Assembly (NCBI GenBank): GCA_005239925.1
Contig: SBBA01000010.1
Coordinates: forward strand, 1 to 38,896
Direction: 5' to 3'
Length of the DNA: 38,896 nucleotides
Origin: Candidatus Troglogloeales bacterium
GTDB taxonomy: Bacteria; Nitrospirota; Nitrospiria; SBBL01; SBBA01
Shown here: one piece after another, positions 1,947 to 37,136 of the stretch
How positions within the stretch are numbered: the first letter of the stretch is position 1
Layout of the letters: the number at the start of each line of letters is the position of its first letter
Translations under genes and position numbers: made by a program
The notes under the pieces: generated by a model
The model's database searches: none
What the model saw: only the letters and a program-made list of their open reading frames with translations
Told to the model about the DNA's origin: nothing

Positions 1947-2093
1947 GTCGGGACGCCGACTGCGTCCGCCGACGGGCGGAGCCGCCAGTGGAAGCGAACG
2001 GAGCCCTCCCGTTGGTCGGCACGCCGACTGCGGTCGGTCTGGGCTTGTCGATGTCGTTACACGAAAATTATTTGCGCAAGATAACGTAGATAT
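1947..2093 (+). repeat. Family A repeat copy 1 (rplK-rplA gap), preceded by an extra 18-nt module at 1947-1964
   Basis: Shares TCCGCCGACGGGCGGAG...CTCCCGTTGG.CGG.ACGCCG.CTGCGGTCGGTCTG...GTTACACGAAAATTAT...CGTAGAT with 7989-8103 and the reverse complement of 35584-35699. Confidence 0.9.
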
Positions 2094-2114
2094 TAAGGAT
2101 GGAAAAGTCTAGGT

Positions 2115-3791: not shown

Positions 3792-3857
3792 GGGTGACCC
3801 GGTGGGTCGCCCGTGTGTTTGGCAAGGCTACGGCAAAGTTCGTCCGGCATGTTTCTA

Positions 3858-3923
3858 GCCGGAATCCGGGGCTGAGCCATCGCAGACAACCCTGGATTCC
3901 GGCTTAAACATTGCCGGAATGAC
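3858..3923 (+). repeat. Family B palindromic repeat copy 1 (rplL-rpoB gap)
   Basis: CTGGATTCCGGCTTAAACATTGCCGGAATGAC at 3892-3923 is identical to 33695-33726; related copies at 20031 and 37046. Confidence 0.88.
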
Positions 3924-3950
3924 ACATATAATCAAACATAGAGGGGAAGT

Positions 3951-6900: not shown

Positions 6901-7988
6901 CTCTCAATAGTGAGGAGTCGGCCCGTCTGCAACGCAATCACCGTGACGAGCTTCGTATCATCGAGGAGGAGCGGTACAAGAAGATACGAAAGCTGTTGCT
7001 GGGGAATGCGATTGGGAGTGACCTTGTTAATCAGGAGACCGGTGAGATCATCTTAAAAAAGAAAAAAAAGATGACCAAGGAGATTCTGGATGAACTCTCT
7101 GACGAAACCCTGAAGGGCCTGGTGCTCAATGATCCTGCTGAGCAGGAAAAGATCAATCGGTTGGAGGCCTTTACAAAAGAACAGATTGATATTCTCCAGA
7201 CGATCTATGATGGAAAGATTGGGCGTCTGAGACGCGGAGATGAACTTCCGACCGGTGTCATTAAATGGGTGAAGGTCTTTATTGCCATGAAGCGTAAGGT
7301 GCAGGTGGGCGACAAAATGGCAGGTCGCCATGGGAACAAGGGCGTGGTCTCACGGGTGCTGCCCGAAGAGGACATGCCTTATCTGGCCGATGGAACGCCG
7401 GTGGATGTGGTGCTTAACCCCTTGGGGGTACCTTCTCGTATGAACGTTGGGCAGATTCTGGAAACCCACTTGGGTTGGGCCGCGAAGGCCTTGGGTCTTC
7501 ATGTTGCGACACCAATCTTTGAGGGCGCCAACGAAAAGGAGATCAAGCAAATGTTGCATGAGGCGGGGCTTCCTTCCTCCGGTCAAACAACGCTCTATGA
7601 CGGCAAGACGGGCGAGGCATTTCGTAGTGACGTGACCGTGGGGCAGATGTATGTGATGAAGTTACACCATTTGGTTGACGATAAGATTCATGCCCGTTCC
7701 AATGGGCCGTATTCACTGGTGACGCAGCAGCCGTTGGGTGGAAAGGCCCAGTTTGGCGGACAGCGTCTCGGAGAGATGGAGGTCTGGGCGCTTCAGTCGT
7801 ATGGCGCTGCCGCAACGTTGCAGGAGTTTCTGACTGTTAAATCGGACGACGTTGCAGGCCGATCCCGCATTTATGAGGCGATTGTTAAAGGCGAGCCGTT
7901 CCTGGAATCGGGGCTTCCCGAATCGTTTAATGTGTTGGTTAAAGAGCTTCAAAGTTTGGCACTCGACGTGGAGTTAATCAAATCATAA
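3951..7988 (+). CDS. rpoB: DNA-directed RNA polymerase subunit beta
   Basis: 1345 aa; [34 protein letters not shown] start after GAGGGGAAG. Confidence 0.99.
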
Positions 7989-8103
7989 TCCGTCGCGGGC
8001 GGAAGCGATCGGATCGCTCCCGTTGAGCGGAACGCCGTCTGCGGTCAACCTGGGCCTACGAATATTGTTACACGAAAATTATCTACGCAAAAAACGTAGA
8101 TGT
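7989..8103 (+). repeat. Family A repeat copy 2 (rpoB-rpoC gap)
   Basis: Begins immediately after the rpoB TAA; ends TTACACGAAAATTATCTACGCAAAAAACGTAGATGT, 36 nt shared with the 35.6 kb copy. Confidence 0.92.
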
Positions 8104-8136
8104 TACCAAGAAAGAATCTAATAGGAAAAGAAAAAG

Positions 8137-24184: not shown

Positions 24185-24250
24185 CCGACGAGCGGAAGCG
24201 AATAGACAGCTCCCGTTGGGAGGGACGTTGCTTGCGGCGCTTGGAATCCT
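24185..24250 (+). repeat. Degenerate 5'-half copy of family A
   Basis: TCCGACGAGCGGAAGCGAATAGACAGCTCCCGTTGGGAGGGACGTTGCTTGCGGCG resembles the first half of 7989-8045; lacks the 3' hairpin. Confidence 0.6.
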
Positions 24251-24396: not shown

Positions 24397-24861
24397 CTAC
24401 AAAACCCCTTTGGGAGGGAGAAGCCTTTCGATAAGGGCTTTGAGAAACAAGAGTTCATCCTTCTGGGTTTCCAATGACGTTTCTATCTGCGCCAGCCGGG
24501 CCTGATGAACCCAGAGTATCCGCCCCATTGCGCCTAGAATAAAAAGGGCAATCGTCATGAAAAGCCCGAACATCCACTGCAAGGTGTCAAATCGCTTATT
24601 CATATCGTCAAACCGCTTATTCATATCATTAAACCGCTGGTTTATATCGTCAAACCGCTGGTTCATATCGTCAAATCGGCGATTCATAGAGGTCTGCAAG
24701 TCGTCAATCCGTTTATTCAGGGCCTGTTGACCGGCCTCTAATCTTGCAAGGCTTTCAATAATCTCCCGGTCACTGATTCGGGGGGCAACCTCAACGGCAT
24801 AAGCCGGCGTCAAAATAGATAAGGCAGATAGGATCACCAAAAAGGCCAACGTCTTTTTCAT
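24397..24861 (-). CDS. Exported/membrane coiled-coil hypothetical protein
   Basis: MKKTLAFLVILSALSILTPAYA signal; heptads RFDDMNQRFDDINQRFNDMNKRFDDMNKRFD; TM helix LFMTIALFILGAMGRILW. Confidence 0.8.
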   Translation of the reverse strand: MKKTLAFLVILSALSILTPAYAVEVAPRISDREIIESLARLEAGQQALNKRIDDLQTSMNRRFDDMNQRFDDINQRFNDMNKRFDDMNKRFDTLQWMFGLFMTIALFILGAMGRILWVHQARLAQIETSLETQKDELLFLKALIERLLPPKGVL

Positions 24862-24941
24862 AGTGTCATTGTGAAACAGATTGCGCTTACGTGTCAACCG
24901 CAGGGTGGAATTGTGTCGAAAAGGATTAAGCGTACCCTTTT

Positions 24942-28408: not shown

Positions 28409-28456
28409 TTATTACCGCACACACTAACTAACTTAGTAGGAGTAAGCCTTGGGAGC

Positions 28457-28681
28457 TTAGGCAACTTGAATCTCTAGGGTGGTCGTCAGAATTTCCTTGC
28501 TCATTGATTCTTTAATTTCTTCTTCTGATAAGGTCTCTAAATAAAGTTCAATAGCTTCTTTTACATTTGCCATGACTTCATCTATGGTGTCTCCCTGAGT
28601 CTGGTACCCTTCAAGGTCAGGGGCGTAGGCATAATACCCATACCCATCTTTTTCAATAACGATGCTGACTTTGTATGACAT
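28457..28681 (-). CDS. HicB-family antitoxin-like protein, copy 1
   Basis: MSYKVSIVIEKDGYGYYAYAPDLEGYQTQGDTIDEVMANVKEAIELYLE. Confidence 0.88.
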   Translation of the reverse strand: MSYKVSIVIEKDGYGYYAYAPDLEGYQTQGDTIDEVMANVKEAIELYLETLSEEEIKESMSKEILTTTLEIQVA

Positions 28682-28789
28682 CTTAATCCCTCCAACTTTT
28701 ATGCTTCCCTGCAACTATATTTAGCCCTTTAAAATGCTACTCACCCCTCCTTGGCCAAGCGGTTGGGGTGGTTTGAAATTCTATTAATT

Positions 28790-28993
28790 TTAGACAGTAT
28801 TCTTCTTCAATCCCAATTCGGAAGCAACAAGATCAAACGGGCGTCCCCGCTTATTCCGTGGGTCAGACTTAGCCTCTCGGAGCGCAATAAGATCATGATA
28901 GTCCTCCAACTCCTTCTGAAGACGAAGAAAGTCTTTGTACGAGATCACTACGAACTCTTTTTTGCCCTGTTTCTCAATAATTTGAGCTTTCAT
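28790..28993 (-). CDS. Phd/YefM-type antitoxin, copy 1
   Basis: MKAQIIEKQGKKEFVVISYKDFLRLQKELEDYHDLIALREAKSD; 3 nt after the RelE-type ORF. Confidence 0.78.
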   Translation of the reverse strand: MKAQIIEKQGKKEFVVISYKDFLRLQKELEDYHDLIALREAKSDPRNKRGRPFDLVASELGLKKNTV

Positions 28994-28996
28994 ACC

Positions 28997-29245
28997 TTAC
29001 CTGTAGGCCTCTTTTCTATGACGAATCCGATAGATTATAACAGTATCAGCCGATATTTCAAAAAGGACCCGGTAATCCCCCACGCGAAGACGATACTCAG
29101 GAGTATAATTTGTCAATCTTTTGATATTGCCTTTCAGACCCTGTTCCAATGCAAAAATGGCGTCTGCAATATGCTGTGCTTCGGATTTAGGAATTGAAGA
29201 CAAATCCTTTTCAGCGCGTCGGCGAATCTCAATTTTATAGAACAC
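28997..29245 (-). CDS. RelE/ParE-type toxin, copy 1
   Basis: YKIEIRRRAEKDLSSIPKSEAQHIADAIFAL...YRLRVGDYRVLFEISADTVIIYRIRHRKEAY. Confidence 0.93.
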   Translation of the reverse strand: MFYKIEIRRRAEKDLSSIPKSEAQHIADAIFALEQGLKGNIKRLTNYTPEYRLRVGDYRVLFEISADTVIIYRIRHRKEAYR

Positions 29246-29959: not shown

Positions 29960-29985
29960 ACTCTTGAGGGGTAAGCCTTGGGAAC

Positions 29986-30210
29986 TTAGGCAACTTGAAC
30001 CTCTAAGGTGGTTGTCAGGATTTCCTTGCTCATTGCTTGTTTCATTTCCTCTCCTGATAAGGTCTCTAAATAAAGCTCAATAGCTTCTTTTATGTTTACC
30101 ATGACTTCGTCTATGGTGTCTCCCTGCGTTTGACATCCTTCAAGGTCGGGCGCATAGGCATAATACCCATACGCATCCTTTTCAATAACGATGCTGACTT
30201 TGTATGACAT
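29986..30210 (-). CDS. HicB-family antitoxin-like protein, copy 2
   Basis: About 9 of 74 residues differ from copy 1. Confidence 0.88.
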   Translation of the reverse strand: MSYKVSIVIEKDAYGYYAYAPDLEGCQTQGDTIDEVMVNIKEAIELYLETLSGEEMKQAMSKEILTTTLEVQVA

Positions 30211-30317
30211 CTTCCTTCCTCCAGCTTTTATGCTTCCTTACAGCTATATTTAGTCCTTTTAAGTGCTTCTCACCCTTCCTTGGCTGAGGGGTTGGGATGG
30301 TTTAAATTCTATTAATT

Positions 30318-30521
30318 TTAGGCAGTATTTTTCTTCAATCCCAATTCGGAAGCAACTAGATCAAACGGGCGTCCCCGCTTATTCCGTGGGTCAGACTTAG
30401 CCTCTCGGAGCGCAATGAGATCATGGTAGTCCTCCAATTCCTTCTGAAGACGAAGAAAGTCTTTGTACGAGATCACTACGAACTCTTTTTTGCCCTGTTT
30501 CTCAATAATTTGAGCTTTCAT
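30318..30521 (-). CDS. Phd/YefM-type antitoxin, copy 2
   Basis: 66/67 residues identical to copy 1. Confidence 0.78.
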   Translation of the reverse strand: MKAQIIEKQGKKEFVVISYKDFLRLQKELEDYHDLIALREAKSDPRNKRGRPFDLVASELGLKKNTA

Positions 30522-30524
30522 ACA

Positions 30525-30773
30525 TTACTTGTAAGACTCTTTTCTATGACAAATCCGATAGATTATCACAGTATCAGTCGATATTTCAAAAAGGACCCGG
30601 TAATTCCCTACGCGAAGACGATACTCATGGGTGTAATTTGTCAATTTTTTGATATTTCCTTTCAGACCCTGTTCCAATGCAAAAATGGCGTCTGCAATAT
30701 GCTGTGCTTCGGATTTAGGAATTGAAGACAAATCCTTTTCAGCGCGTCGGCGAATTTCAATTTTATAGAGCAC
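30525..30773 (-). CDS. RelE/ParE-type toxin, copy 2
   Basis: About 8 of 82 residues differ from copy 1. Confidence 0.92.
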   Translation of the reverse strand: MLYKIEIRRRAEKDLSSIPKSEAQHIADAIFALEQGLKGNIKKLTNYTHEYRLRVGNYRVLFEISTDTVIIYRICHRKESYK

Positions 30774-33676: not shown

Positions 33677-33694
33677 AAGCATCTTTAAAAGTCA

Positions 33695-33726
33695 CTGGAT
33701 TCCGGCTTAAACATTGCCGGAATGAC
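33695..33726 (+). repeat. Family B palindromic repeat copy 3
   Basis: CTGGATTCCGGCTTAAACATTGCCGGAATGAC, identical to 3892-3923. Confidence 0.88.
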
Positions 33727-33783
33727 GGCAACGTGATGTTTAAATGGTGAGACCTAATTCTATACCAAGCACACCACCCCTCC

Positions 33784-35557: not shown

Positions 35558-35583
35558 TACCGTAACCAGACTCTCTATGGGTG

Positions 35584-35699
35584 ACATCTACGTTTTTTGC
35601 GTAGATAATTTTCGTGTAATGACATCCACATGCACAGACCGACCGCAGGCGGCGTCCCGCCCAACGGGAGTGCTCCGCTCGCCTCCGCCCGTCGGCGGA
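35584..35699 (-). repeat. Family A repeat copy 3 (ccmB-ccmC gap)
   Basis: Reverse complement TCCGCCGACGGGCGGAGG...CTCCCGTTGGGCGGGACGCCGCCTGCGGTCGGTCTG...ATTACACGAAAATTATCTACGCAAAAAACGTAGATGTCA; starts at the ccmB TGA. Confidence 0.92.
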
Positions 35700-36377: not shown

Positions 36378-37047
36378 ACCCCAATTCCTTGACCGGAATC
36401 TCCCGTAACGTCTTATTATGTAAAATACCGGCGTGGCTTGCCACTTCGGCGGCCTTTGCACGATCATGGCTGCTCATCAAAACGGCCGTTCCTTTTTTAA
36501 GAAACTCACGAATACAATCGTTCATCATCTCCATCCCTTTTTCGTCGAGTGAGACGTAGGGTTCATCCAAGAGCAGAAGATTGGGGTTGGCCAAAAGCGC
36601 CTTGGCTAGGGCCAAACGCCTTTGCATCCCAGCCGATAAATACCGGCTCTTTTGTAACGCAAACGGGCCAATACCGACACGATCCAACACATCCCTGATC
36701 ATGCTGAATGACGGCGTCTCTCCACGAAGTCCCATCGTAAATTCAATATTCTCTGTAACTGTTAAGTCATCGTAAAGAAAAGTGCCATGCCCAATAAAAA
36801 AGAGGTAACGCCGCGCCTCCTCCCGACTCTGCTGGGTGTCCTTCCCCATGATCTCGATGGTCCCCGATGTCGGTTTGAGAAGTGTCGCCAGAATTTTCAT
36901 GAGGGTTGTCTTGCCCGCTCCATTGGGGCCAAACAGGACATAACAATCGCCCGGATTTAACGTCAAGGAAACATCCTTTAATACCTTATGATATCGGTAT
37001 GTATGGCTGATCTGGTATCCGAGAAGAGAAACCATGAGAAGGCTCAA
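36364..37047 (-). CDS. ccmA: Heme exporter ATP-binding protein CcmA
   Basis: GPNGAGKTTLMKILATLL, LSAGMQRRLALAKALL, LLLLDEPYVSLDEKG. Confidence 0.94.
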   Translation of the reverse strand: MSLLMVSLLGYQISHTYRYHKVLKDVSLTLNPGDCYVLFGPNGAGKTTLMKILATLLKPTSGTIEIMGKDTQQSREEARRYLFFIGHGTFLYDDLTVTENIEFTMGLRGETPSFSMIRDVLDRVGIGPFALQKSRYLSAGMQRRLALAKALLANPNLLLLDEPYVSLDEKGMEMMNDCIREFLKKGTAVLMSSHDRAKAAEVASHAGILHNKTLREIPVKELGYALF

Positions 37048-37136
37048 ACGTCATTCCCGAATACTTCTATCGGGAATCCAGCGGTTTGCTCCCAACGGCT
37101 CTGGATTCCGGCCTAAAGATTGCCGGAATGACGTTT
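37046..37136 (+). repeat. Family B palindromic repeat copy 4, with perfect 12-bp terminal inverted repeats
   Basis: AAACGTCATTCC (37046-37057) / GGAATGACGTTT (37125-37136); internal CTGGATTCCGGCCTAAAGATTGCCGG. Confidence 0.9.

Follow-up and report, generated by a model that had tools for sequence, protein, structure and literature searches.

The three repeats that occupy the rplK/rplA, rpoB/rpoC and ccmB/ccmC gaps of the window, the whole stretch of 38,896 nucleotides analysed here, are copies of a dispersed mobile DNA element of 110-150 bp. This is probably a short non-autonomous element of IS200/IS605-like type, which is inserted 3′ of (W)CTAA, ends in CTAA and lacks terminal inverted repeats (TIRs). 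Its dispersal, target, ends and structure are established at the level of sequence, and a new variety of miniature, IS200/IS605-like non-autonomous element accounts, in our view, for most of what is seen.

The copy in the rpoB/rpoC gap (7989-8121, plus strand; profile match of 102 bits, boundaries from the flank alignment) contains one inner hairpin cassette and begins directly 3′ of the TAA at 7986-7988. This rpoB stop codon forms part of the host target tetranucleotide, ATAA (7985-7988, plus strand), in a family that prefers CTAA. On the same strand follow a left-end hairpin, S0, with the sequence TCCGTC-GCG-GGCGGA (7989-8003), supported by covariation across copies; the inner 18-nt hairpin cassette AGCGGAACGCCGTCTGCG, placed approximately at 8026-8043 by the alignment of copies and missing there from the shortest members of the family; a right-end hairpin, ATCTACG-CAAAAAA-CGTAGAT (8081-8101); and the terminal CTAA that forms the right end of the element (8118-8121). 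The ccmB/ccmC copy (35566-35699, minus strand) begins directly 3′ of the ccmB TGA, and its right end has decayed to CTGG. The rplK/rplA copy (1965-2112, plus strand) has CTAG at its right end, followed by GTATG. As described in the first-pass annotation, an 18-nt module intervenes between this copy and the rplK stop; it is the hairpin cassette GTCGGGACGCCGACTGCG, directly after the TAG (1947-1964, plus strand). Cassettes of this type also occur inside other element copies, and because the module is such a recurrent cassette the copy can equally be read as abutting the stop. The left starts given in that annotation stand; the 3′ ends lie about 18 nt further on, past the last hairpin, at the terminal CTAA, CTGG or CTAG, so that the rpoB copy ends at 8121 and not at 8103. 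All three copies are oriented sense to transcription, and Pfam confirms the flanking genes as those for L11, L1, RpoB, RpoC, CcmB and a cytochrome c assembly protein adjoining CcmB. The window also contains an old partial copy, left half only, with the S2 variant ACAGC (24185-24237, plus strand; repeat families D7 and I3) and a probable left-half relic, AACGGGGGCAGCGAGCAGCCCGCTCCCGCTGGTCG on the minus strand (15022-15056; repeat family D9, compared by eye with the sub-families).

The home genome is a 2.37 Mb MAG of 258 contigs, 93.6% complete, and its copy number is roughly a hundred, as an order of magnitude only. BLAST searches of this genome returned at least 44 matches for the rpoB copy (the best 40 of 134 first-look candidates were scored) and at least 46 for the consensus (the best 40 of 225), and E-values of 1e-28 and better rule out chance. 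Within 1.18 Mb of contigs, about half the genome, we obtained 167 profile matches including many partial copies, although these contigs were partly picked for holding copies and the density is not simply extrapolable. Some dispersed copies are 97-98% identical to the consensus, and sub-families share common ends with different middles. Boundaries and genomic context were taken from 77 near-complete copies of a first batch, whereas the stop-codon count used 84 copies and the identity bins used 98 comparable copies from the 1.18 Mb.

Alignment of the flanks gives the anatomy of the element as host CTAA, the left junction, a hairpin opening with TCCGCC, a second hairpin, the right hairpin and GAGTCTAA, after which host sequence resumes. 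Among copies scoring above 100 bits, the left flank reads (W)CTAA with C in 39, T in 46, A in 48 and A in 47 of 53 copies, while at the right end GAGTCTAA each of the last bases is the consensus in 54 of 56. Apart from the left CTAA, the host sequence beyond both ends is near random. Six copies have TTAA on the left and none of these has it on the right; across the left variants TTAA, ATAA, GTAA and TTGA, the right end is mostly still CTAA. The difference at position -4 is significant (C in 39/53 on the left versus 54/56 on the right, Fisher P=0.0008). The host supplies the left tetranucleotide, a variable target for which stop codons, TGA and TAG included, contribute some of the sites, and the right CTAA is the fixed end of the element. 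Since the two tetranucleotides do not co-vary, they are not a classical target-site duplication.

In the IS200/IS605 family the target tetranucleotide lies outside the element, next to its left end, and the last tetranucleotide on the right is part of it (PMC6006769). The same arrangement is found here, with a preferred but variable CTAA outside the left end and a fixed tetranucleotide closing the right, no TIRs, no target duplication of variable sequence and a subterminal hairpin at each end. The strongest signal of an unbiased mutual-information scan falls on the second hairpin, S2 (columns 34-52 and 36-50), and the observed pairing of S0 and S2 was reached by 0 of 500 shuffles and is far above slid controls; compensatory changes across copies are not seen in the right hairpin. 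Folding as single-stranded DNA predicts hairpins at both ends (z -3.6 for the whole element), and the rpoB copy folded by itself as RNA is uninformative (z -0.7). By eye the foot of the right hairpin reads AATT or AATG, the left hairpin abuts the cut, and no common guide tetranucleotide was recognised. A candidate pseudoknot, S1 (AACGG/CCGTT), crossing S2 was dropped, as 333 of 500 shuffles reach its pairing.

Individual insertions bear the mark of the two CTAA sequences. In two cases (C135 and C142) an overlapping TAATG has been split, the upstream gene keeping its TAA and the downstream ATG taking its A from the right CTAA, and in several antisense copies (for example C114 and C95) the right CTAA read backwards regenerates a TAG stop. 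One copy (C87) lies in frame within an ORF of about 600 residues, to which it adds 39; the corresponding place in homologs from G001 and G006 is a variable linker, compatible with an empty site, though not an exact one. Tandem copies joined at one shared CTAA were found twice (C251 and C141). We propose that the element inserts immediately 3′ of (W)CTAA and that, its own end being CTAA, the target would reappear on both sides, leaving the neighbouring genes usable. It would move as single-stranded DNA, much as IS200/IS605 elements or PATEs do; a Y1 (HUH) transposase supplied in trans would read the hairpins and cut on the 3′ side of both the target and the terminal CTAA. In compact operons the tolerated CTAA sites would often be stop codons only, and this would produce the abutment to stops; the inserted element would be a transcribed passenger, whose position needs no separate RNA function.

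Several other repeats are present in the same window. A second, REP-like palindromic family, GTCATTCCGG...GGAATCCAG / CTGGATTCCGGCTTAAACATTGCCGGAATGAC, occurs at 3838-3924, 20032-20110, 33688-33727 and 37046-37136, and elsewhere in the genome a CTAA-ended element (C252) sits in the loop of a copy of this different palindromic repeat. The 3′ part of the gene for tRNA-Trp (452-528) is repeated exactly over 49 nt further downstream (629-677), and between the two lies a palindromic repeat, GGGGGAGGCTCC...GGAGGGGGCGACGCGAGCCCC, which resembles repeats in G001 and G011-G016 and the middle of the elements of G015. A long direct repeat (28438-29060 and 29967-30588) is 88-94% identical at a spacing of about 1528 nt, and a 21-bp tandem repeat (24568-24693) lies within a minus-strand ORF (24397-24897).

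Three known kinds of element invite comparison. PATEs are elements consisting of ends only that are mobilised in trans (PMC7290912). Like them, the CTAA element is short, has hairpins near both ends and no TIRs, is flanked on the left by a host target, contains its final right tetranucleotide and is presumably moved in trans. It differs in that its left hairpin starts at the first base, in its extra hairpin and 18-nt cassettes, in copies that far outnumber the single PATE-like element of that study, and in that we found no autonomous IS having its ends. Like the REP/BIME sequences moved by RAYT (TnpAREP), it has many intergenic palindromic copies and occasional in-frame copies in genes, and the home genome has a RAYT-like Y1 gene (C131). 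However, REPs measure 21-65 nt (PMC6006769), whereas the CTAA element is longer, directional and fixed in its CTAA ends; no copy lies near the RAYT-like gene, and by eye the GT[AG]G hairpin foot is not in the consensus. Rickettsia palindromic elements (RPEs), known from in-frame insertions in genes (PMC10969869), are of similar size and structured; the commonest length of the CTAA element, 117, is likewise a multiple of three, one frame is usually open and one copy is in frame in an ORF. This one clear case (C87) stands against a large intergenic majority, and frequent in-frame insertion into genes was not seen.

The enzyme that moves the element was sought in the home genome and its relatives. 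In the 1.18 Mb read, about half of the 93.6% complete MAG, no cognate transposase was found. The one Y1_Tnp gene of the home genome (C131) encodes 316 aa with a Bac_DnaA_C domain, and its flanks are without element ends; this domain has been reported for subgroup 2.1.2, within a subclass that has no linked REPs (PMC6006769). This single RAYT-like Y1 gene, at L212 (2617-3564), has imperfect inverted sequences of its own, GGTCAGGCATGAATTAT / ATAATTTCAGGCCAGACC, on either side. Element ends were absent from every Y1 locus examined from the order, among incomplete genomes, and an autonomous IS combining a Y1 TnpA with these ends was found neither in the home genome nor in the relatives; TnpB had no match in the home genome. 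In a search for an autonomous parent with its ends far apart, only longer sub-families and one pair 368 nt apart (C61) were recovered. As the MAG is 93.6% complete and half of it was read, the autonomous parent may simply be absent from the data. With no related autonomous Y1 IS the element cannot be filed as a proven PATE, and the claim that it works like one rests on its ends.

CTAA-ended relatives of the element occur in G002, G015 and G017, which represent three further families of the order, and one of these relatives abuts what reads as a stop codon. Among 396 genomes drawn evenly from the phylum, matches were confined to G000 and G017, and scans of GTDB genome contigs and IMG/VR with exact-core patterns gave no match. 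In G015 and G002 (L296, L298, L299, L315 and L323) the ends of the CTAA element are joined to a different middle, GGGGGCTTGCGTCGCCCCCTC, which suggests mosaic exchange between repeat families. The first-pass annotation had called for inspection of orthologous gaps in relatives: the nearest named relative of RpoC, at 72% identity, belongs to a Nitrospirales MAG (L132), and the rpoB/rpoC gap of that genome is without a copy.

The enzyme searches leave some room for a different agent. It is possible, although we judge it unlikely, that the copies form a novel gene-sparing miniature transposon family confined to one order, in which CTAA regenerates TAA, antisense TAG and TAATG, and that its enzyme is not a recognisable Y1 protein. 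Mobilisation by another HUH or rolling-circle enzyme, of IS91/Helitron-like type, or by an enzyme as yet unknown, is improbable. In its favour, and against the Y1 step, two relatives that carry the element, G002 (97% complete) and G017 (94% complete), gave no match to Y1_Tnp. Helitrons begin with 5′ TC, end in 3′ CTRR and have a subterminal 3′ hairpin, and the CTAA element has a 5′ TC, a 3′ CTAA and a hairpin some 16 nt before its end. Against this, a host tetranucleotide on the left and a fixed one on the right follow the IS200/IS605 rule and not the Helitron A|T rule, and a T follows the right end in just 19 of 56 copies. Y2_Tnp had no match in the home genome, where the control was silent as well, so this result is not evidence of absence.

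The first-pass annotation had inferred from three copies out of three that the repeat lies in sense directly after stop codons, and had suggested either an element with stop codons as its insertion sites or an RNA module acting between cistrons. That geometry does not extend to the family. In the first batch, tandem gaps contained 37 sense and 22 antisense copies, a further five copies lay between divergent genes, five between convergent genes and one inside a gene, and five were at contig ends. Copies starting exactly at a stop codon numbered 20 of 84, or 23 of 98. When every non-coding site with a matching tetranucleotide is counted as available, 2.4 copies would be expected to abut a stop, and 20 were seen to do so; we judged this expectation misleading, since it mixes in long gaps and probably uncalled genes, and chose a gap-matched null of available CTAA sites after seeing that result. 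In gaps of up to 40 nt the stop-abutting fraction was 0.48 for copies against 0.55 for available CTAA sites, and the sense fraction 0.83 against 0.80; in gaps of up to 100 nt the values were 0.43 against 0.33 and 0.75 against 0.68, none of these differences being significant. A modest excess at stops emerges only once the gap limit is raised (P=0.026 at 200 nt, P=0.006 at 300 nt), and may reflect selection or errors of the simple gene caller. As CTAA contains the sequence of a stop codon, the stop-abutting, sense placement mostly follows from the target. Of the two suggestions the first comes close: the element is mobile, and its target is (W)CTAA, often a TAA stop. Set against random orientation and position, which that annotation had named as its counter-case, the family falls in between.

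A conserved cis-acting RNA module, acting in processing, stability or coupling and kept as useful after stops, is not supported and seems improbable to us. In its favour are the excess of sense copies in tandem gaps, the two covarying hairpins and the behaviour of the identity bins. Copies 80-95% identical to the consensus are mostly sense (40 against 12 antisense), whereas of the youngest (at least 95% identity, n=13) three are sense, six antisense and one is at a stop (Fisher P=0.015 for orientation); 34 of 67 copies in the former bin lie within 20 nt of a stop, compared with 1 of 13 in the latter (P=0.005). However, the oldest bin reverses the trend (3 sense, 8 antisense), and a survivorship reading is only suggestive as identity is confounded with sub-family. 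Further points against an RNA module are the third or so of tandem-gap copies that are antisense, the copies that are divergent, convergent or inside an ORF, the short-gap stop and sense fractions no different from available sites, and the empty gap in L132. Rfam gave no match at gathering and none at E up to 1, by eye the pair counts contain no clear surplus of G-T relative to A-C that would point to RNA in preference to DNA, and the rpoB copy has a single terminator-like match, which falls on the antisense strand and close to chance level (one found where 0.4 were expected).

Weakest of all is the proposal of a MITE of an IS5-like DDE transposon, whose 4-bp target preference is of YTAR type (CTAA, TTAA) and for which both CTAA would be a target-site duplication: the copies are short, the targets CTAA or TTAA, and 36 of 77 have an exact flanking CTAA direct repeat, but the TIRs and co-varying duplication of a DDE MITE are not seen (TCCGCC on the left versus ACTCTC read inward from the right end; just one matching non-CTAA copy, GTAA/GTAA, left variants otherwise mostly keeping the right CTAA) and the two sides differ in conservation, as given above, which makes it very improbable.

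We return to the probable IS200/IS605-like element and what it means. The availability of target sites in short gaps offers a simple null for claims of stop-codon targeting or of intercistronic RNA, and the element points to a mobilising enzyme in the order. Its insertion rule shields coding sequence on both strands, so that the repeat sits between rpoB and rpoC, and between rplK and rplA, without evident harm.
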